Part shown: positions 11,021 through 19,717 of the stretch, piece by piece
Numbering within the stretch: the first letter of the stretch is position 1
How the letters are laid out: every line of letters begins with the position of its first letter
Source of the DNA: a virus
Reading direction: 5' to 3' (one strand)
Length of the DNA: 21,666 nucleotides
IMG/VR virus record: IMGVR_UViG_3300036770_001859
Coordinates: 1-21,666 of that record
The notes under the pieces: model-generated
Database searches by the model: none
What the model saw: only the letters and a program-made list of their open reading frames with translations
What the model was told of the DNA's origin: nothing
Made by a program: the position numbers and the translations under genes

Positions 11021-11057
11021 AAAGCCCAGTAGATTGCTCTACTGGGCTTTTTGTTTT
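11021..11057. terminator. Bidirectional terminator between convergent operons
   Basis: A perfect 13-bp inverted repeat (AAAGCCCAGTAGA at 11021-11033 pairing with TCTACTGGGCTTT at 11038-11050) around a TTGC loop. Plus-strand transcripts run into TTTTTGTTTT. Minus-strand transcripts run into a T-rich stretch complementary to AATAAAAAA before the stem. It sits exactly between the last plus-strand stop (11016) and the last minus-strand stop (11056-11058), so it ends both operons. Confidence 0.93.
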
Positions 11058-11691
11058 ATAGTGGAGTATCTTCGTTGCTGTCCTCAACATCAACAGTGTT
11101 ATCATCATCCATGCTGTCCAATTCGCTAAATACATTTATTAGTATATCACGATATGGTTGCTCTACTTGATGTAAGTCTACTAAGTATACGTCTAAGTGA
11201 TCGTTTCGTAATAATTCAGCATGATACATAAATTGGCCAAACGCTTCCAATTCTTCGCTGATATTTTCATTGGCGTAATTTTCTAGTACTTGTGCAGCTA
11301 TCATCCGAATAGGCTTAGGTATTAAACCCTTTTCAGTTAATTTTACTAGTTGCAGTGCTTTACCTTCACGCTCACGCATAATTTGATTGCGCTTGGCTGT
11401 ACTCCAACTATAACCACCATCTCCGCCCCAAAGATCCCAGGCTACGCGACCTTTACTAGGAAAACCTTCTTCTCCACTGCGGAAACCAGTAGCTTGTTTA
11501 TCTGGTTCGTGACGACTGAAAAAGCTGTACATACGTAATACTGTACTAGCACTTAGTGGTTCACGATCTTTTAATTGATTGGCTCTGGCTAAGCCAACTA
11601 GTGTTCCACCAGCTTTTCCTTCACTTTTCCACTTTAGTGCTCGCCTGGCAGCACTAGCCATACCACTTGTTGGTTTATATGTTTTAGCCAT
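11056..11691 (-). CDS. Conserved phage protein of unknown function, 211 aa
   Basis: The N-terminal 100 residues have a striking conserved-looking pattern: MASAARRALKWK (11-22), GGTLVGLARANQL (28-40), TVLRMYSFFSRHE (50-62), GEEGFPSKGRVAWDLWGGD (73-91) and YSWS. I recall similar blocks in other phages but not a proven function. Basic and aromatic residues suggest nucleic acid or protein binding. The middle is helical and the C-terminal 25 residues are very acidic (DSMDDDNTVDVEDSNED). AGGA lies ahead of the ATG and a terminator follows. It is the last gene of the minus-strand operon, directly after the cyclase gene. Confidence 0.8.
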   Translation of the reverse strand: MAKTYKPTSGMASAARRALKWKSEGKAGGTLVGLARANQLKDREPLSASTVLRMYSFFSRHEPDKQATGFRSGEEGFPSKGRVAWDLWGGDGGYSWSTAKRNQIMREREGKALQLVKLTEKGLIPKPIRMIAAQVLENYANENISEELEAFGQFMYHAELLRNDHLDVYLVDLHQVEQPYRDILINVFSELDSMDDDNTVDVEDSNEDTPL

Positions 11692-11702
11692 TCCAGTTCC
11701 TA

Positions 11703-12929
11703 TTATCTCATACGATTATCATCAATAAACTTTATTTCATCAACTAGTGCATCTGCATCAGTTTTATAATTATTAAAATCACTCTTACTTATAGTCTTGT
11801 TAAGTTCTTCTAATAAACGCTGTGCCTCACTATTATGTTGAGCACGGGCTGCGTATAACCAACGAAATGCATTTTTCTTATCACCTGTTTGCGTATAGTA
11901 TTTTGCCAAGCTTAACATAGCCGGCACATTACGCTGCATAGCACTTTCTCGAAGATCACCTATAACACTCTCTATCTCACCTTGACTGCTTAGTGGATCG
12001 TCAAAAACCATAGCTGCTAATTTTTGACTTGCCAGCTCATTAACTTTAGCAGCATGCCGCAAAAATTGCATAGCTAAACTATGACTGTCCGACTTAACCA
12101 ACTCTACTATTTTTAGTGCAACATCACTAGTTACCTTTTGATGTATTTCTCTAAAAACAGCGTAAACATACGGTTTAAGCTGTTCAGGAACAGCGTCTTT
12201 TTGTAATAAGTTTACTAGTTCATCTAACGCCTTTTGATCGCCCTTGTGGGTTCTCCACATTAATATTCGTGTGGCCGCATCATATCTACCATCATGCTTA
12301 AAAGTTATAGCATCATTAAGAGTACGATTTCTTGCCGCTTGGTCATTAGTTACTGCACCAATTAGTTCATTATGACTTTTAGTATTTGTTATTGGTTTTT
12401 TCGTTGCTTTATTTAAGTGTGGATTAGGCTCACAACCTACTATATCAACACTCCAAATCTCCATAGGCTCTACATTTTTAAACTCTTGAACACCACGACT
12501 AATAAATTTAAGGTCTTTTATTTTTGAATTAACTAGTCTATATACGGCGTCAGTCATTGTTACGCCACCATAATCAGCTAAGCTTTCAGTACGAGCAGCT
12601 AAATTAACAGCATCTCCCATTAAATTAGTACCATAAATCCATACTTCACCTACATGTATGCCTATACGCCAACGAAGTCCATTGTTTAGTTTATATAATC
12701 TATGCTGCATTTCAGTGGCAAAGCGCACAGCATCAACAGCACTGGCAAACTCTACGAGCACACTATCTCCACCTGTGTTAAATAGCCTGCCTTTATAAGC
12801 ACCTATTAGCGGATCAATGACTGCACGACAAACATCTAGTTTAGCTAATGTTCCTATTTCATCACGTTGCATTTCTGTGCTGTAGCCAATAACATCACTG
12901 CAAATTATTGTGGCTAATTTAGTTTGCAT
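11703..12929 (-). CDS. Class III nucleotidyl cyclase with Sel1/TPR-like repeats
   Basis: A 408-residue protein. Residues 1-165 form a class III adenylate/guanylate cyclase homology domain: CSDVIGYS (metal ligand D12), FNTGGDSVLVEF (metal ligand D55), WRIGIHVGEV (88-96) and GDAVNLAART, giving the transition-state residues N109 and R113. The base-recognition Lys and Asp of adenylate cyclases appear as N51 and N102, so the substrate (ATP or GTP) cannot be called. After a linker, residues 200-395 are helical with Sel1/TPR-like repeats (AMLSLAKYYTQTGDKKNAFRW), probably a partner-binding platform. There is no signal peptide or membrane segment. The start overlaps the upstream 62-aa membrane protein gene by 11 bases, so the two may work together. 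A cyclic nucleotide product is inferred. Confidence 0.88.
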   Translation of the reverse strand: MQTKLATIICSDVIGYSTEMQRDEIGTLAKLDVCRAVIDPLIGAYKGRLFNTGGDSVLVEFASAVDAVRFATEMQHRLYKLNNGLRWRIGIHVGEVWIYGTNLMGDAVNLAARTESLADYGGVTMTDAVYRLVNSKIKDLKFISRGVQEFKNVEPMEIWSVDIVGCEPNPHLNKATKKPITNTKSHNELIGAVTNDQAARNRTLNDAITFKHDGRYDAATRILMWRTHKGDQKALDELVNLLQKDAVPEQLKPYVYAVFREIHQKVTSDVALKIVELVKSDSHSLAMQFLRHAAKVNELASQKLAAMVFDDPLSSQGEIESVIGDLRESAMQRNVPAMLSLAKYYTQTGDKKNAFRWLYAARAQHNSEAQRLLEELNKTISKSDFNNYKTDADALVDEIKFIDDNRMR

Positions 12930-13107
12930 GTTGTTTTACGTCTTTTATTAGTTTATTAACCTGATCCCAAAGTGCAGTAATTTGTCTGTCATAATTTTTT
13001 TCTAAGTAATCTAACCTAACTTTAATTGTAACAGCATAGGCAGCTATGGCAACTATTCCAGCACCTAAAAACCATAATTTACCTACGGCATCTGTAACAG
13101 TTTCCAT
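12919..13107 (-). CDS. Small single-pass membrane protein, 62 aa
   Basis: One transmembrane helix (LWFLGAGIVAIAAYAVTI, about 11-28) followed by a cytoplasmic-type charged helix likely to form a coiled coil (KVRLDYLEKNYDRQITALWDQVNKLIKDVK). GGGAG precedes the ATG with good spacing. It overlaps the start of the cyclase gene by 11 bases. The size and topology would fit a holin-like, antiholin-like or membrane-adaptor protein. A role in tethering or sensing for the cyclase is possible from the overlap but unsupported otherwise. Confidence 0.8.
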   Translation of the reverse strand: METVTDAVGKLWFLGAGIVAIAAYAVTIKVRLDYLEKNYDRQITALWDQVNKLIKDVKQHAN

Positions 13108-13117
13108 AGCTATCTCC

Positions 13118-13801
13118 CTATTTATATGCTAAAATTATTTGTTTACATAATTTACTGCGAACAATATCTTCATCACGAAATCTAACAATTTCAATACCTT
13201 CAATACCTTCAAGCCTATTAGTAGCGTCTAGTAATCCACTATTGCTAATGTCACTTTGCTCTTGATCGCCGCTAATTATTATTTTACAGTTTTTTCCAAT
13301 GCGTGACAAGATCATTTTCATCTCATCTCTAGTAGCATTTTGTGCTTCGTCGAGTAGGACCATACAATCTTCAAAAGTAGTTCCACGCATAAATCCTAGC
13401 GGTTTAGGTACTATTTGATTTTTATTTAGTGCATACTCGTAAAATCCGCGTCCTAAACTGTTAGTAAAGATTTGATCAAATGGTTCTAGGTATGGTGCAT
13501 ATTTTTCTTCTAGTGTGCCTGGTAAGAAACCTAGTCCTCGCCCAGTTTCTATATTAGGTCTTGTTAGTATAATCTTTTTAACACGTCGGTGAAATAATTC
13601 ACCGGCTGCATATGTTGCTGCAATATAGGTCTTGCCAGTGCCTGCGCTGCCTATACCAAAGATTATACTATTTTCATGAATGGCCCGTAAATATTCGCCT
13701 TGAATATAATTAAGTGGTTTTACATTTTCAAAGCCTATTTCCAGGGGAACAACGTTATCACGTTGTACGCTGCGTAATTTTTTAGCACTGCTTTTGGCCA
13801 T
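13118..13801 (-). CDS. phoH: PhoH-like ATPase
   Basis: A P-loop ATPase of the PhoH family, 227 residues, shorter than E. coli PhoH (about 350) but in the phage range. Walker A GSAGTGKT is at 51-58, followed by ILTRPNIETGRGLGFLPG (78-95), Walker B VLLDEAQNA (148-156), the sensor segment ISGDQEQSD and the C-terminal FRDEDIVRS. These blocks define the family. PhoH genes are very common in aquatic phages; proposed roles include RNA handling or phosphate-stress response, but none is firmly proven in phages. It lies within the run of exported-protein genes and its last codons abut the 62-aa membrane protein gene. Confidence 0.94.
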   Translation of the reverse strand: MAKSSAKKLRSVQRDNVVPLEIGFENVKPLNYIQGEYLRAIHENSIIFGIGSAGTGKTYIAATYAAGELFHRRVKKIILTRPNIETGRGLGFLPGTLEEKYAPYLEPFDQIFTNSLGRGFYEYALNKNQIVPKPLGFMRGTTFEDCMVLLDEAQNATRDEMKMILSRIGKNCKIIISGDQEQSDISNSGLLDATNRLEGIEGIEIVRFRDEDIVRSKLCKQIILAYK

Positions 13802-13823
13802 ATTATAGTCCTAATAGTTAAAG

Positions 13824-14126
13824 TTACTTTTTATCTGGTACTTTATGCCCGTCTAATTTTTCATGAACCTTAACTTCTTTACATACCTGCTCTGGCTTAC
13901 CATCTTTGCCAATAACAGGCTTACCATTCTTTACTTTATCAATACAAGCTTTTTCCTTTTTAGCTTCTTCTTTTTTAGCAGGAGCCTTTTCTTCTTTCTT
14001 AGCTGGCTCGTCTTTTTTAGCTTCGGCTTTAGCTGGTGCTTTTTCTTCTTTTTTAACTGGATCAGCAGCTAGTGCTGGTTGCAGTAATAATGCTGAAGCT
14101 ACAAATGCTAATAAAATTTTAGTCAT
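13824..14126 (-). CDS. Secreted Lys/Glu/Ala/Pro-rich protein, 100 aa
   Basis: A clear Sec signal peptide (residues 1-20, LLAFVASALLLQPALA, with an Ala-x-Ala cleavage site) followed by imperfect repeats of K/E/A/P blocks (VKKEEKAPAKAEAKKDEP, then EEKAPAKKEEAKKEK) and a C-terminal part with two cysteines (CIDKVKNGKP, VCKEVKVHEK). The mature protein is periplasmic, very charged and probably extended or disordered. AGGAA precedes the ATG. It sits between the holin-like gene and phoH. A role in the envelope, such as bridging peptidoglycan or binding a periplasmic partner, is a guess from composition and location. Confidence 0.8.
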   Translation of the reverse strand: MTKILLAFVASALLLQPALAADPVKKEEKAPAKAEAKKDEPAKKEEKAPAKKEEAKKEKACIDKVKNGKPVIGKDGKPEQVCKEVKVHEKLDGHKVPDKK

Positions 14127-14137
14127 ATAGTTTCCTA

Positions 14138-14584
14138 TTATAGTTCTGGAAATGGTTGTTGCGGTGGTGCGGCTTTGCCGCCAAACCCAACAGTTACTTG
14201 GTTGCCACCAATTGATGGGGCTATGCTTATACTACCGTTATTACCTAGGGTAACAGTTGGCATAGGTGTTGGGCTTGGTGGCTTATCCCAACCTTTGTTT
14301 GCAGCTTGTAGGGCTGCTTTTTGAGCATCCTTATCGCCACTGGCTAACATAATACCACTAAGTGTACCTGTTAAAAAAGTAGCAATAGGAATAATCAATT
14401 CAAAAAACTTATTATCTACAGGACTCATTCCATTCATAGGCTGAGTTACAAATATTAAACTGTAGAGTACTACGAATACAATACCAAATAGTGTTAGCGC
14501 TAATACCATACCTATAAAAAACTTGAGCCTGGCCATTAACTCGTCTTCAGTATAACGCGGGCCTTCCCATAGGTCTTTAATCAT
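14138..14584 (-). CDS. Two-TM membrane protein, holin candidate
   Basis: 148 residues with two strong hydrophobic helices (about 22-47, KFFIGMVLALTLFGIVFVVL, and about 62-82, FELIIPIATFLTGTLSGIML), a short loop between them, and a Pro/Gly-rich soluble C-terminus (PPSPTPMPTVTLGNNG). The charged N-terminus and two-helix topology fit class II holins, though the C-terminal tail is long for one. Its ATG overlaps the stop of the 71-aa lipoprotein gene (ATGA). It lies about 4 kb downstream of the endolysin in the same operon, so a holin role is plausible but not shown. Confidence 0.75.
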   Translation of the reverse strand: MIKDLWEGPRYTEDELMARLKFFIGMVLALTLFGIVFVVLYSLIFVTQPMNGMSPVDNKFFELIIPIATFLTGTLSGIMLASGDKDAQKAALQAANKGWDKPPSPTPMPTVTLGNNGSISIAPSIGGNQVTVGFGGKAAPPQQPFPEL

Positions 14585-14796
14585 TTACAATCCTTTACTG
14601 GTGCTTGAGCTGGTTGCTTATTGCCAGCAATTAGTTTATCTTTTTCATAAGGCGTCAGATCTTCAGGACAAGTTCCGTTTGCACTGCAATAAGGTTTTTT
14701 ACAAACTTTATGTTCCCAGTTATCTGGATTTTGACACGGGTATCTGTAGACGTCACTACAACCAGCTAACAGTACTGTTAGTAATAATATTCGCAT
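14581..14796 (-). CDS. Small Cys-rich lipoprotein, 71 aa
   Basis: A short signal with a lipobox (LLAGC, lipidated Cys13) and five more cysteines in the mature part (21, 32, 37, 43, 70), suggesting disulphide bonds in the periplasm. The middle segment (YRYPCQNPDNWEHKVCKKPYC) looks like a compact Cys-knot-type module. AGGTG lies ahead of the ATG. Its stop overlaps the holin-like start by four bases. Phage lipoproteins of this type may act in lysis or superinfection exclusion; which one cannot be told here. Confidence 0.82.
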   Translation of the reverse strand: MRILLLTVLLAGCSDVYRYPCQNPDNWEHKVCKKPYCSANGTCPEDLTPYEKDKLIAGNKQPAQAPVKDCK

Positions 14797-14803
14797 TGGT
14801 CAC

Positions 14804-15457
14804 CTACTTATTAGCTAGTGGATTATCTAGTGCTTTCTTTAAGTCCTCGTTAATCTTACGATCAAGAGCTTTGAGCTTAGCATCTACTTCACGATTATTA
14901 GCAGCAATAGCTTTAGCATTATCTGCACTCATCTTGTTCATTTCTTTAGTAGCACTATTAAGTGCTTGATCAGCCGCCTTTTGTATAGATCTAACTTCTA
15001 CCTTAATCTCCTGCACAGTTTTATCTATTTCACGTTGTTGAGTCTTATTACTAGTTTCCACACTTTCTACAACTTTTTCTAGTCTACGTATATCAGTCTT
15101 AAGATCATTTTTAATATCACGAGTATATTCTGCCGTTTTATCGCTGCCTTCTTGCACAGCCTTAGCAGTTTTTGTAGAATTCTCTTCAATAACTGCAAGT
15201 CGTTTGTCAAACTCACTAAAATCTGGACTTACATATTCAGCAATTTTCTTTTTCATGCCTATGTAGTCTTTATAGACTTCAAAAGCACCGTATAATGCGC
15301 CTAGTACACTGCTTAAAATTGTGGCCGCAACCATTAGTTTAGCTGGAGTAAAATCATATCCACCTACGCTAATAACGGTATCTTTACTAGCATATTTTTT
15401 AGCGGCAGCTTCAAGTTCGTCGACTTTTTTATCTAAGTTGACTTTTTCTTCACTCAT
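14804..15457 (-). CDS. Membrane-anchored coiled-coil protein, 217 aa
   Basis: One hydrophobic helix (LMVAATILSSVLGALYGAFEVY, about 41-62) preceded by a charged N-terminus and followed by some 140 residues of nearly continuous coiled coil rich in K, E, D, A and T (for example DIRRLEKVVESVETSNKTQ). There are no cysteines. The layout suggests an inner-membrane protein with a long rod on one side. The stop of the 32-aa microprotein gene overlaps its start (ATGAGTGA). AGGA lies ahead of the ATG. It could be a spanin-like or structural envelope protein, but a dedicated spanin pair is already present at 19.5-20.1 kb. Confidence 0.8.
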   Translation of the reverse strand: MSEEKVNLDKKVDELEAAAKKYASKDTVISVGGYDFTPAKLMVAATILSSVLGALYGAFEVYKDYIGMKKKIAEYVSPDFSEFDKRLAVIEENSTKTAKAVQEGSDKTAEYTRDIKNDLKTDIRRLEKVVESVETSNKTQQREIDKTVQEIKVEVRSIQKAADQALNSATKEMNKMSADNAKAIAANNREVDAKLKALDRKINEDLKKALDNPLANK

Positions 15458-15548
15458 CTTTTTTCCTATACGTAGCTAGAATCCACAAAAACATAATAAA
15501 ACATAGCACATGAAATAGTGCTAAATAATTATCATTACCAACTTCCAT
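15450..15548 (-). CDS. 32-aa membrane microprotein
   Basis: A tiny gene starting at ATG 15548, with AGGAG six bases ahead, ending with TGA at 15452-15450 that overlaps the next gene's ATG. The product has a short acidic N-terminus (MEVGNDNYL), one hydrophobic helix (LALFHVLCFIMFLWILATY) and a charged tail (RKKDE). The strong ribosome binding site, the tight fit between neighbours and the coding overlap argue it is real despite its size. Single-pass microproteins of this kind in phages are often holins, antiholins or membrane regulators; its role is unknown. Confidence 0.7.
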   Translation of the reverse strand: MEVGNDNYLALFHVLCFIMFLWILATYRKKDE

Positions 15549-15550
15549 GA

Positions 15551-17335
15551 CTATCTCCTGTATTGTTGATCTATCATTTCTTGGTGTTTTGCGTCTTGGC
15601 CTAGGCTACGCAAGGCACGCACATTATCCACTGTGCGTTGACCACGATAGATTTCTCGTGGTTGATAAAAAGCTATTTCTCGTATAGCTAAGTTTTGATA
15701 TGCGTCAAAGCCTGCTGGCACACGAGCAATTTGACTGATACTAATTCCACCTGCAATATCATTGTCCTGTGTGTTAGGTTTTACACTAGGGCCAGCAAAT
15801 ACCGCAGTTTGAGTAGGTAGTTGCTGTGCGTTTACTGCATCATTAAGTGGATTAGTTCTATCAATCAGGGCTGCTGCTACTGTACTAGACTGCATATCTA
15901 CAGCAGGTATTTCCACTGTAGGAGCTCTAACTGGTTCTGCCACTGTGATAGTTTCTACCACAGGTACAGGTTGACTTGGGACTGCCAGTGTTTGCACGGG
16001 TATGCTCACAAGTTGTGGATCTGTGTTGATTTTTGCAGGTTCAATTAGATTGTAATTTGTTTGAGTATTTGGCTGATTAACAACTATCGGCTCAGGAGCA
16101 CGAAATAGTGGCATTTGAGTTTGTGTTAAGGTATCATTATCTGTGGTAAGGATTTGTGTGGCTAAGCGTGGTTGACCTGGTAGAAGCGAAACTATAATAC
16201 TAGTAGTCTGTGTGGGAGCTACTAACAATTGATCTAGTGTACTTATTTCAGATGCAGTATCGGATTTTGTTGAAGTATCCCTTACTTGATTTGATCTTGT
16301 TTGATTAGTTATGCTTTGAGCTAGTGTACTTATTGTAGCTGTTTGAGTTACTACAGTTTGTTCTAGAGTACCCTCTCTAGCAACAGCACTGTCTGTAGAA
16401 TCTGCCAAACTGGTACGCACACGAGGAAGTGTAGGTGTTGGCTGATTTATCATAGATATAGTAGAACTGCTACTGCTCGTAGTACTAGATGCTGCTGCGG
16501 TTTCTGTTTCCTGTGCGAATTGTTCTTGTCTCGCTGTTAACTTTACCACAGCACTGGTCATTGCAGGTAATGATATAGATGGTGCAAAACTTGTAGTTGC
16601 TGCTATGATAGGTGTAATAGCGGCACTAGAGTCTTGTGCTTGATAAGCAGGACTGGCTATGGCTTTTAAAAATCCGGGACAGTCTGTGCTGTGTAGTGGA
16701 TTTACCACACAAGGATCTGGTTGATAACGGAGACTAAAACTTACATTCGTTATTTCTGGACCATATGGTCCTAGCCAATAATTATTGTCTTTACCCATAA
16801 ACCCATACAGTATGGTTCCTAGATCTTCTCCCCTACGCTCTTTGCTAAATGTACCTGTCCAGGCAAAGTTTGTCCAATCGTGTATGTAGTTTAAGTTATA
16901 ACTTTGTGCCTCTATCCATTGACCACCTTTGCTGTACATTTGCACATAGGCTGACAGTTGGTCTTGTCTAGCATCATCCCAGTAGTTACCATTTTTACTC
17001 ATCCAATTAAATTGGAATCCTGTTACCATTAAACCAATACCAGAATAAGGCAGCACATCTGCCATGGCTCTAGCTTGATGCAGCTCAGTAAAACTATAAC
17101 TAAAATTTATAGAACCATCCGGTCTTACATATGGAATACCCCCTGGACTACAGTTAGGATCACCACTTTTCCAGCAAGTAAGCTCAGGGACTGAATAGCC
17201 GTTGGTCCAAGTGCTGCCCACAAGATTTCCGGTATTACTAACTTGACTGTGAGCTATAACAACCCATCCACAAAGTATAATTATTAAAAATACAATAAAT
17301 CCGCGAGTATGCTTATAACCGTAATTGGGCTCCAT
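15551..17335 (-). CDS. Large secreted or anchored Ser/Thr-rich phage protein, 594 aa
   Basis: An N-terminal signal or anchor helix (FIVFLIIILCGWVVIAHS, about 13-30). Residues 31-210 form an aromatic, probably beta-rich domain (WTNGYSVPELTCWKSGDPNC, INFSYSFTELHQA, GKDNNYWLGPYGPEITNVSFSLRY) that recurs, as I recall, in uncultured aquatic phages. A 260-residue low-complexity Ser/Thr/Gln/Val linker follows. The C-terminal 60 residues (VPAGFDAYQNLAIREIAFY, REIYRGQRTVDNVRALRSLG) look conserved and end in QQYRR. The function is unknown; it probably works in the host envelope or outside it. The start overlaps the upstream stop by one base (TAATG) with only a distant AAGG. Confidence 0.82.
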   Translation of the reverse strand: MEPNYGYKHTRGFIVFLIIILCGWVVIAHSQVSNTGNLVGSTWTNGYSVPELTCWKSGDPNCSPGGIPYVRPDGSINFSYSFTELHQARAMADVLPYSGIGLMVTGFQFNWMSKNGNYWDDARQDQLSAYVQMYSKGGQWIEAQSYNLNYIHDWTNFAWTGTFSKERRGEDLGTILYGFMGKDNNYWLGPYGPEITNVSFSLRYQPDPCVVNPLHSTDCPGFLKAIASPAYQAQDSSAAITPIIAATTSFAPSISLPAMTSAVVKLTARQEQFAQETETAAASSTTSSSSSTISMINQPTPTLPRVRTSLADSTDSAVAREGTLEQTVVTQTATISTLAQSITNQTRSNQVRDTSTKSDTASEISTLDQLLVAPTQTTSIIVSLLPGQPRLATQILTTDNDTLTQTQMPLFRAPEPIVVNQPNTQTNYNLIEPAKINTDPQLVSIPVQTLAVPSQPVPVVETITVAEPVRAPTVEIPAVDMQSSTVAAALIDRTNPLNDAVNAQQLPTQTAVFAGPSVKPNTQDNDIAGGISISQIARVPAGFDAYQNLAIREIAFYQPREIYRGQRTVDNVRALRSLGQDAKHQEMIDQQYRR

Positions 17336-18822
17336 TAGCGTCTATACCTTATACGATCTTCATAAGAATCTTCTACTAGTGCCAATTTTTCAATTGGATC
17401 AGGTATTAAATGTGGGCTTTTTTCCCATAATTCTTTGGCCTGATCACCAATTTTGCCTTCTATAGGGCATGGCGTGCCTGCTGCCATCATAGCGTCCCAT
17501 ACTCTACGATCTTGACACATAGTAGCAACTGCTGCTACTTTCATACCCATATCGTAAAGTGTCTTACTTAGACGTAGTCTTTCGCAATTCAAATCTCGTT
17601 GGGTTGCGCCAAAGCTAACTCCTAATACTTGCGTTTGTGCTGCTCCACTTACGCCAGTTACACATAAATCTTGTCCCATGCTCATCATAGCAGGTGCAAC
17701 TGCTGTAGGAGGTGGTTGTTTGATAGTTTGCGTAATTCTAGTATCGTTAATATTGCGATTAGTCATATCGCCAGTCTGTATATTATTATTTACATTTTGG
17801 CTGGTTGACGTACTGCTGTTAGTATTTACGTTAGTATTTTTGTTATCAGTTCCACCACTCTGTACTGTACGCACAGTTTGATCACCAGTATTTACGTTAT
17901 TGTTAGTATTAACATTAGTACTTGTACTATCACTAGTACTGGTATTCACATTGTTGTTGGTGTTAGTATTATTAGTGGTAGCTGTGCTTGTTGAAGTGTT
18001 GATATTACGATTGGTCATATCACCAGTGTTAATATTATTATTAGTATTAACATTTGTGCTATTACTAGTACTAGTATTTACATTGTTGTTATTATAAGTC
18101 ATTGTACCAGTATTGATATTCTGATTTACATTGTTACTGGTAGTGACATTGTTGTTGTTATATGTCACAGTGCCTGACATGATATTACGATTGGTATTAT
18201 CATTAGTTGATGTTGTAGTGTTTACATTATTGTTGTTATAAGTTACTGTGCCACTTTGAACATTACGAATAGTTTGATCGCCAATATTGTTGTTAGTGTT
18301 TATGTTAGTATTAGTAGTTCCACCACTCATAATCGTTGTATTTGTATTGTTCGATGTAGTGGTATTAGTGTTTTGATTGATATTGGTTACTGTACCACTT
18401 TGCACATTGTTGTTGGTGTAGGTTACACTACCACTCATAACATTATTATTAGTAACTGTACCACTTTGTATATTGTTGTTAGTATTAATGTTGGTATTAG
18501 TACTTGTATTAGTATTAGTGTTTTGATTAATGTTGGTTAGTGTACCGCTCTGTACATTGTTATTAGTATAAGTTACACTACCACTCATAACATTATTATT
18601 AGTAACTGTACCACTTTGAATATTGTTATTTGTATTGGTACTGGTACTATTAGTGGTTGTAGTGTTATTGGTAGTCACATTGCTAGTACTATTACTAGTA
18701 CTATTAGTATCAACTAAACTAGTACTAGTATATCCACCCTGATTAATTAATGTTTGCTGCGCTAGGCTATTGTTTGTTAAGCCAAATAATAAAGCTGTTA
18801 TAAAGGCTAATACTTTTCTCAT
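17335..18822 (-). CDS. Secreted Asn/Thr/Ser-rich repeat protein, 495 aa
   Basis: A Sec signal peptide (AFITALLFGLTNNSLA, cleaved near residue 21). Residues 35-350 are almost entirely N, T, S, V and G, built from recurring NNN-V/I-x-S/T-G-x-V/M-T units (NNNVMSGSVTYT, NNNVQSGTVT). This is the pattern of a beta-solenoid or fibre, or of an aggregation-prone sheet. The C-terminal 120 residues form a normal-composition domain with cysteines (QDLCVTGVSG, DLNCERLRLSKTLYDMG, TMCQDRR, GTPCPIEGKIG) ending in RYRR. AGGAG precedes the ATG. DNA-level 150-nt repeats show recent expansion. A surface, adhesive or envelope-shielding role is a guess from composition. Confidence 0.85.
   Translation of the reverse strand: MRKVLAFITALLFGLTNNSLAQQTLINQGGYTSTSLVDTNSTSNSTSNVTTNNTTTTNSTSTNTNNNIQSGTVTNNNVMSGSVTYTNNNVQSGTLTNINQNTNTNTSTNTNINTNNNIQSGTVTNNNVMSGSVTYTNNNVQSGTVTNINQNTNTTTSNNTNTTIMSGGTTNTNINTNNNIGDQTIRNVQSGTVTYNNNNVNTTTSTNDNTNRNIMSGTVTYNNNNVTTSNNVNQNINTGTMTYNNNNVNTSTSNSTNVNTNNNINTGDMTNRNINTSTSTATTNNTNTNNNVNTSTSDSTSTNVNTNNNVNTGDQTVRTVQSGGTDNKNTNVNTNSSTSTSQNVNNNIQTGDMTNRNINDTRITQTIKQPPPTAVAPAMMSMGQDLCVTGVSGAAQTQVLGVSFGATQRDLNCERLRLSKTLYDMGMKVAAVATMCQDRRVWDAMMAAGTPCPIEGKIGDQAKELWEKSPHLIPDPIEKLALVEDSYEDRIRYRR
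18422..18618 (-). repeat. Direct repeats, 150-nt period, in the Asn/Thr-rich gene
   Basis: A perfect 47-nt copy at 18422-18468 recurs at 18572-18618, exactly 150 bases (50 codons) apart. The sequence between is also similar. The shared segment encodes the NNNIQSGTVT / NNNVMSGSVT units. Less exact copies extend to about 17750. Perfect identity over a codon-aligned period points to recent duplication or recombination within the gene. Confidence 0.9.
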
Positions 18823-18842: not shown

Positions 18843-19457
18843 TTAGTGGCTTAGTATATGTAAACAATGCTCGTAATGCTTTTGTCTATCCTCTAGGCCA
18901 ATTGTTCCGCCATTAATACGTTTTGTAAGTGTGAATATATCACGCTTGTCCGCCCATTGATTCAAATTGTTACTTTCCCAAAACCAGCAGGCACTTTGTG
19001 CAGCACCTTCAAAGGTTTCCATATATTCGCTAGCCTCTTCGGGACTAATCTGTAGACTAGCTGCAAACCAGCTGTAGTTATCTCGACCAGTTACCTGTAT
19101 CAGGCCACGCCCACAAAACTTATAGCCATCGCCAGATTCCTCAGGACCATTGCCCATGCGGTTAGCATACACACGATTAGCAATCTTTTGTGGTTGCTTT
19201 TCGTATTGCTGTGCCAATGCATCTGTGGGAAAATACTTGGGAAATACCTTGCGTAGGCTTTGCCAGCGATAGTTTAAGTTTTCCTTGATAAACACAAAAC
19301 CACCCGACTCATGTGCACACTGTGCTAAAAAGGCAGCTATACGATCTGGTGTATTTATTTCATATTGTGGTAATAATTGTTCTAGTGCAGTATGCCAGTA
19401 ACTAACATATTGATTTTTTGGTATAACTTGCTTTAGTTGATCTAGTGTAAGTTCCAC
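18843..19457 (-). CDS. GH19-type endolysin (chitinase-like lysozyme)
   Basis: A 204-residue glycoside hydrolase family 19 enzyme that cuts peptidoglycan glycan strands for lysis. Visible family motifs are FLAQCAHESGGF (catalytic Glu in HESGG), ANRMGNGPEESGDGYKFCGRGLIQVTGR (split here: YANRMGNGPEESGDG, then YKFCGRGLIQVTGR) and LTKRINGGTIG. It has no signal peptide, so it needs a holin to cross the membrane. The start is GTG at 19457, one base into the upstream TAG, with AGGAG five bases ahead. It follows the two spanin genes directly, forming a lysis cassette. Confidence 0.94.
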   Translation of the reverse strand: MELTLDQLKQVIPKNQYVSYWHTALEQLLPQYEINTPDRIAAFLAQCAHESGGFVFIKENLNYRWQSLRKVFPKYFPTDALAQQYEKQPQKIANRVYANRMGNGPEESGDGYKFCGRGLIQVTGRDNYSWFAASLQISPEEASEYMETFEGAAQSACWFWESNNLNQWADKRDIFTLTKRINGGTIGLEDRQKHYEHCLHILSH

Positions 19458-19717
19458 TACTGCTCCTTATTAAATATTTTCTGCTGTGTTGTATACCACT
19501 CTATCCAACTACTATTATTACCACTACATATATGATACTGCATATAGTTATCTACAACTATTTTTGTTAATTCACTTAGTTGAGCCCCTTCAGGTACTGT
19601 TTTAAGTGATTGACATTGCTCTAATAAAGGTTTTGGTGCTTCAGGAAAACGTTGCTTAACTGGTACTGCAGTTGCGCATCCAGCTAGTAATAGCGTTAAT
19701 AATAAAATATATTTCAT
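19457..19717 (-). CDS. Outer-membrane spanin lipoprotein (Rz1-like)
   Basis: 86 residues with a lipobox (LLAGC, Cys14) and a short, partly proline-bearing mature part (VPVKQRFPEAPKPLLEQC), as expected for an o-spanin that sits in the outer membrane and binds the i-spanin across the periplasm to fuse the two membranes at the end of lysis. Its ATG overlaps the stop of the i-spanin-like gene by four bases (ATGA), and its stop overlaps the endolysin GTG. Assignment rests on lipobox, size and position; spanins diverge too much for motif proof. Confidence 0.8.
   Translation of the reverse strand: MKYILLLTLLLAGCATAVPVKQRFPEAPKPLLEQCQSLKTVPEGAQLSELTKIVVDNYMQYHICSGNNSSWIEWYTTQQKIFNKEQ

Follow-up and report, generated by a model that had tools for sequence, protein, structure and literature searches.

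What does a phage do with a signalling enzyme of bacterial type? The question is posed by an open reading frame of 408 amino acids (11703–12929, minus strand, ATG start) in an IMG/VR virus record of 21,666 bases, referred to here as the window. The encoded protein is an intact, probably active class III nucleotidyl cyclase, whose C-terminal domain is Sel1/TPR-like.

Domain structure and active site of the cyclase

The Guanylate_cyc family PF00211 matches the 408-residue protein with 32.3 bits against a cut-off of 21.9 (E 9.6e-8), the NCBIfam model LipJ matches it at E 1.5e-14, and its nearest PDB sequence is 3mr7 (E 3.5e-22). AlphaFold2 produced a model with a pLDDT of 87, for which the best fold match found by Foldseek is the cyclase domain of Rv1900c (TM 0.87 by target length, rmsd 2.0 Å). 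Profile and model comparison therefore both identify the class III fold that had been proposed from sequence alone, and the predicted secondary structure together with Foldseek delimits the cyclase domain to residues 1 to 161 (12447–12929, minus strand).

The same sequence-only reading had named D12 and D55 as metal aspartates, N109 and R113 as the transition-state pair, and N51 and N102 as occupants of the Lys/Asp positions that recognise the base. Our alignment agrees exactly on all six. D12 (12894–12896), D55 (12765–12767) and N109 with R113 (12591–12605; all minus strand) are present and invariant in the aligned full-length viral copies, and 19 aligned sequences show no change at any of these four positions or at N51. 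Where the base-recognition lysine would stand, every full-length viral copy has Asn (N51; 12777–12779, minus strand), as do cellular N-type relatives. N102 (12624–12626, minus strand), at the aspartate position, is replaced by Asp only in L052, L053, L055, L058 and L070 among 44 full-length loci (L055 being the same contig as L017). Since the pattern used for the genome scan fixed N51 and left N102 free, the agreement at N102 is unbiased.

The protein thus carries neither the Lys/Asp pair for adenine nor a Glu/Cys-type pair for guanine, its combination being Asn/Asn, with Asn/Asp in a few viral loci. The base-reading pair governs substrate choice and not membership of class III. As judged from the residues, the nucleotide made cannot be read from N51 and N102, a pair that would leave base preference undecided. 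Rv1900c (LipJ) of Mycobacterium tuberculosis is an active adenylyl cyclase despite the replacement of Lys by Asn at the first of these positions. Beyond that replacement it resembles the window protein in fold and in the LipJ profile match, and differs from it in carrying its own hydrolase domain in place of a Sel1/TPR-like one and an Asp at the second position (PDB 1ybt, 1ybu).

The cyclase domain is followed by a helical-repeat domain at residues 186 to 408 (11706–12374, minus strand), delimited by AlphaFold2, Foldseek and the alignment. Folded alone, this part is all helical with a pLDDT of 93, and in the alignment it closes with a conserved DFNN(Y/F)KTDADALVDEIKF helix. No Pfam repeat family passes its cut-off in the window cyclase. 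The top Foldseek matches nevertheless agree on Sel1/TPR solenoids, including LpnE and AlgK, at scores that are weak though consistent (best E-value 1.2e-3), which bears out the Sel1/TPR-like platform suggested earlier.

Distribution, selection and bacterial relatives

The family was found on at least 50 viral contigs, the largest of 399,796 bases; two scans of viral contigs returned 26 and 50 loci, mostly on the same contigs. Pairwise comparison gives dN/dS values of 0.04–0.09 for the gene as a whole and low values for each domain separately, the C-terminal domain being conserved at least as well as the cyclase domain in most pairs. Approximately 50 viral loci under such constraint exclude a chance open reading frame, and purifying selection together with the intact active site argues for catalysis. 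Many uncultured aquatic phages thus carry a signalling enzyme of bacterial type that is probably active and should produce a cyclic nucleotide.

The earlier remark on the small number of phages with such an enzyme is correct for catalogued phages, in which 50,697 records gave zero matches at E≤1e-5, and fails for IMG/VR, in which a generic class III cyclase profile matches at least 533 stretches. Among the latter are more divergent members of the same architecture (L205, L206, L207 and L227). No PHROG family matches the window cyclase, and other phage cyclases are already present among viral structure models. In the literature found by searches on phage-carried cyclases, a study reporting a cyclase in pelagiphages (PMC9599517) was alone clearly relevant. 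The enzyme class, the bacterial architecture and the existence of phage cyclases are therefore already known; as far as our searches show, the size and spread of the family and its repeated placement within or close to lysis cassettes, including a clean pair of operons with and without it, are new.

A maximum-likelihood tree built from the cyclase domain groups all 32 viral rows in a single clade (100/99) that adjoins two full-length Burkholderiaceae-type proteins, L078 and L199, an exact placement that is tentative given the long branches. Both have the two-domain architecture and the C-terminal helix motif of the phage proteins, and both differ in being chromosomal. L078 is about 35% identical and carries the N/N pair; L199 has an N/D pair. 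The L078 contig encodes FlhB and RpoN, so we rejected the possibility that it derives from a phage, and the gene directly after its cyclase encodes a PF00027 cyclic-nucleotide-binding (CNB) protein (1.2e-19). An N/N pair is also found in alphaproteobacterial TPR cyclases. The Asn pair was thus inherited and is not a phage innovation: base-recognition residues that had been described as altered in the phage are shared with bacterial TPR cyclases, and a phage-specific shift of base specificity is rejected. A survey of 300 Burkholderiaceae genomes gave a match at E≤1e-40 in one, the query genome itself, indicating that such bacterial relatives are rare.

Sequence comparisons suggest that the phages acquired the cyclase from a bacterium, most likely a Burkholderiales-type host. 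This assignment draws on two genes and two comparison groups. The second gene encodes HemF, a coproporphyrinogen III oxidase (L035:2978–3859, PF01218 2.8e-123), which lies a few genes from the cyclase and is also present in L008, L036, L038 and L065. In the L035 phages, HemF shares 61% identity with Burkholderiaceae proteins and at most about 50% with those of Alphaproteobacteria over comparable lengths, values that agree with putative Burkholderiales-type hosts for this phage group.

Gene neighbourhood and lysis cassettes

The cyclase sits on several phage backbones that are unrelated to one another. One, the window type, encodes class II RNR, PhoH and SbcCD; a T4-like type encodes polB, UvsX and DnaB (L009, L012 and L024); L008, L035 and L036 form a HemF/DnaB group; and there are further groups with a lysozyme (L053) or an adjacent terminase (L067).

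In the window, the following neighbours share the minus strand with the cyclase. Directly downstream lies a gene for 211 amino acids of unassigned function (11056–11691, phrog_2859 1.2e-31), and upstream lies a gene for a 62-residue protein with a single transmembrane segment and a coiled coil, cl1 (12919–13107), directly preceded by a PhoH-like ATPase (13118–13801, PF02562 6.5e-67). Genes for small membrane proteins or lipoproteins that are found repeatedly around the cyclase (cl3, cl2 and cl5; 14138–15457) are followed by two large predicted secreted proteins, cl4 and cl6 (15551–18822). A GH19-like endolysin and an Rz-like spanin (18843–19717; phrog_181 3.4e-75 and phrog_456 6.6e-7) lie approximately 6 kb upstream of the cyclase. 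No known RNA element was found in the window. The adjacent secreted-protein genes (17335–18822 and 15551–17335) recur with the cyclase in many loci. The C-terminal domain of cl6 is common to Pelagibacter and Roseobacter phages, and the protein that bears it also has long Asn/Thr/Ser-rich repeats; its partner has no match in catalogued phages. A DUF4337 membrane protein, cl7 (L007:8659–9195 and relatives, 1.4e-30), was observed around the cyclase in 13 loci.

The last 11 nt of cl1 overlap the start of the cyclase gene. This overlap, correctly noted before, had been taken as a hint of a two-part, membrane-linked signalling unit, and a search for the same gene pair speaks against that proposal. 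The 62-residue protein is encoded near the cyclase in 26 of the 36 loci compared, in three arrangements; cl1 is missing from several cyclase-bearing lineages, and the cyclase is missing from 48 of 80 cl1 loci. We therefore rejected a dedicated pair, and an obligate unit of the two is unlikely. Moreover, a phage lysozyme lies within 2 kb of cl1 in 39 of the 42 cyclase-less loci with enough sequence, which makes cl1 a lysis-cassette protein independent of the cyclase. An 11-nt overlap of the cyclase start is also made by cl25 (L012:9568–10011, L007 and L009), a transmembrane coiled-coil protein unrelated to cl1, a consequence of the conserved M(E/Q)TK start codons of the cyclase, which provide a stop in the other frame.

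The relationship to lysis genes is most evident in a pair of cassettes. In L053 and L017 the order is cl1, cl58, the holin-like cl59, cyclase, lysozyme; in L166 and L189 it is cl1, cl58, cl59, lysozyme, with the cyclase absent. Between L053 and L166 the proteins are 82% (cl58), 94% (cl59) and 81% (lysozyme) identical, and DNA similarity runs on at both sides. Whether or not the cyclase is present, the beginning of the lysozyme gene shares 4 bp with the gene ahead of it. In this one lineage, then, the cyclase is an extra cistron in an operon that is otherwise colinear, placed after the holin-like gene and before the lysozyme. The lysozyme assignment is secure (PF00959 1.1e-27), and cl59 matches holin family phrog_3427 weakly (1.6e-4). 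Over the wider set, 13 of 32 loci have an endolysin belonging to one of three types sought, at 0.4–7.7 kb from the cyclase; in the other 19, none of the three lies within the stretches examined, and no lysis gene could be recognised beside the cyclase in the lineage with HemF. Some lineages thus clearly place the cyclase in the lysis region, while in others such a position is not evident. Its retention in or near the lysis set by some of the phages hints at a chemical signal that they may send late in infection.

Candidate roles for a late cyclic-nucleotide signal

The reading that we favour, at a probability of roughly one half, is that of a host-derived, late-expressed cyclase acting as a homodimer whose product addresses receptors of the host. 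The gene would probably be transcribed together with the late, lysis-region genes, and the homodimer would make a 3',5'-cyclic nucleotide from a purine nucleoside triphosphate (ATP or GTP). The Sel1/TPR-like half may dock the enzyme to another protein or allow regulation through it, the partner possibly being a small membrane coiled-coil protein encoded beside the cyclase. The signal would most likely reach CNB proteins of the host late in infection, gene position alone pointing to late action. A search of 20 viral records that carry the cyclase revealed no PF00027 domain, so that a phage-encoded receptor of this kind was set aside and the receptor is probably the host's; most of these viral records are fragments, however, from which a phage receptor, or one without PF00027, could be missed.

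Position in the lysis region can also be taken as function. The product, or the protein itself docked through its Sel1/TPR-like domain to holin-like coiled-coil membrane proteins, might delay or trigger lysis, a possibility that we regard as doubtful. The insertion of the cyclase between holin-like gene and lysozyme is in keeping with it, as are its repeated neighbours, namely cl1, with its lysis-cassette association in 39 of 42 cyclase-less loci, and the transmembrane coiled-coil genes cl16, cl18 and cl25. Against this, a place in a late operon may provide late expression and nothing more, related phages lyse without the enzyme, 19 of the 32 loci lack all three endolysin types searched for, and the holin role of cl1 and cl59 is itself conjectural, given the weak phrog_3427 match. 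Somewhat less probable still is a self-regulated lysis operon, in which the late signal of a cyclase docked at the membrane to holin-like coiled-coil proteins would set the timing of lysis or, as the cell bursts, warn neighbouring cells or phages. The position could equally be incidental, with raised cAMP or cGMP altering host catabolism, motility or biofilm through CRP/CNB regulators; we hold this to be about as unlikely as an effect on lysis timing. The CNB gene beside the bacterial sister L078 speaks for such steering, which also has a precedent in Xanthomonas campestris, where XC_0250 has been shown experimentally to supply cGMP to the CNB protein XC_0249 (PMC3770947). XC_0250 resembles the phage protein in joining a class III cyclase to a TPR region, and its CNB effector gene is linked as at the bacterial sister gene L078; it differs in its 886 residues, in Leu/Ala as transition-state residues and in being a demonstrated guanylate cyclase (PMC3770947). 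A pelagiphage adenylate cyclase located in a curli secretion module and reported as an auxiliary gene (PMC9599517) lends further weight to metabolic steering, yet a late position leaves little time for metabolic change and the window module lacks curli genes. CsgG, CsgF and curlin-repeat Pfam matches were absent from window genes 11056–18822 and from the L009 homologues of cl4 and cl6, and the window cyclase has no match in catalogued pelagiphages. We thus rejected a pelagiphage-like curli module, though the cl6 C-terminal domain is common to both.

Two further explanations appear improbable. Were the cyclase fold a non-catalytic relic within a scaffold or virion-associated factor, the conservation of the C-terminal domain, at least equal to that of the cyclase domain in most pairs, and the many neighbours predicted to be membrane or secreted proteins would be accommodated; against it stand strong purifying selection on the cyclase domain and, in all full-length copies, invariant metal aspartates together with an invariant Asn/Arg pair and the motifs around them. 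Slightly less credible again is a factor for anti-defence or superinfection exclusion, whose product would confuse or prime a cyclic-nucleotide defence such as Pycsar; the sequence-only reading had envisaged interference with defences of this kind. PycC enzymes do belong to the class III cyclases (PMC11224242), and a PycC model gives a weak, partial match to the window cyclase (8e-4). This match covers residues 67–137, the generic cyclase core only; the best match of the protein is generic and Rv1900c/3mr7-like, Pycsar effector models found nothing among 7 window ORFs, and PF00027 proteins occur in 0 of 20 phage records. A phage-made Pycsar signal would in any case be expected to trigger abortive infection. 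A Pycsar identity or role is thus unsupported.

If the enzyme is active as predicted, the host-directed signal that we favour would constitute a widespread route by which phages deliver a second messenger to the host. Work so far has concerned the opposite direction, namely the degradation of host messengers by anti-CBASS and anti-Pycsar nucleases (PMC9117128). L053 and L166 form a natural pair for comparing a lysis operon that has the signalling enzyme with one that lacks it, which makes the timing or signalling of lysis by cyclic nucleotides directly testable.

Phage class III cyclases are also found in another architecture. The protein encoded at L207:813–2867, likewise a phage class III cyclase, differs from the window protein in carrying the membrane sensor CHASE2, and its gene lies directly upstream of a Sel1/TPR-type cyclase, so that two different cyclases adjoin on this 109-kb viral contig.
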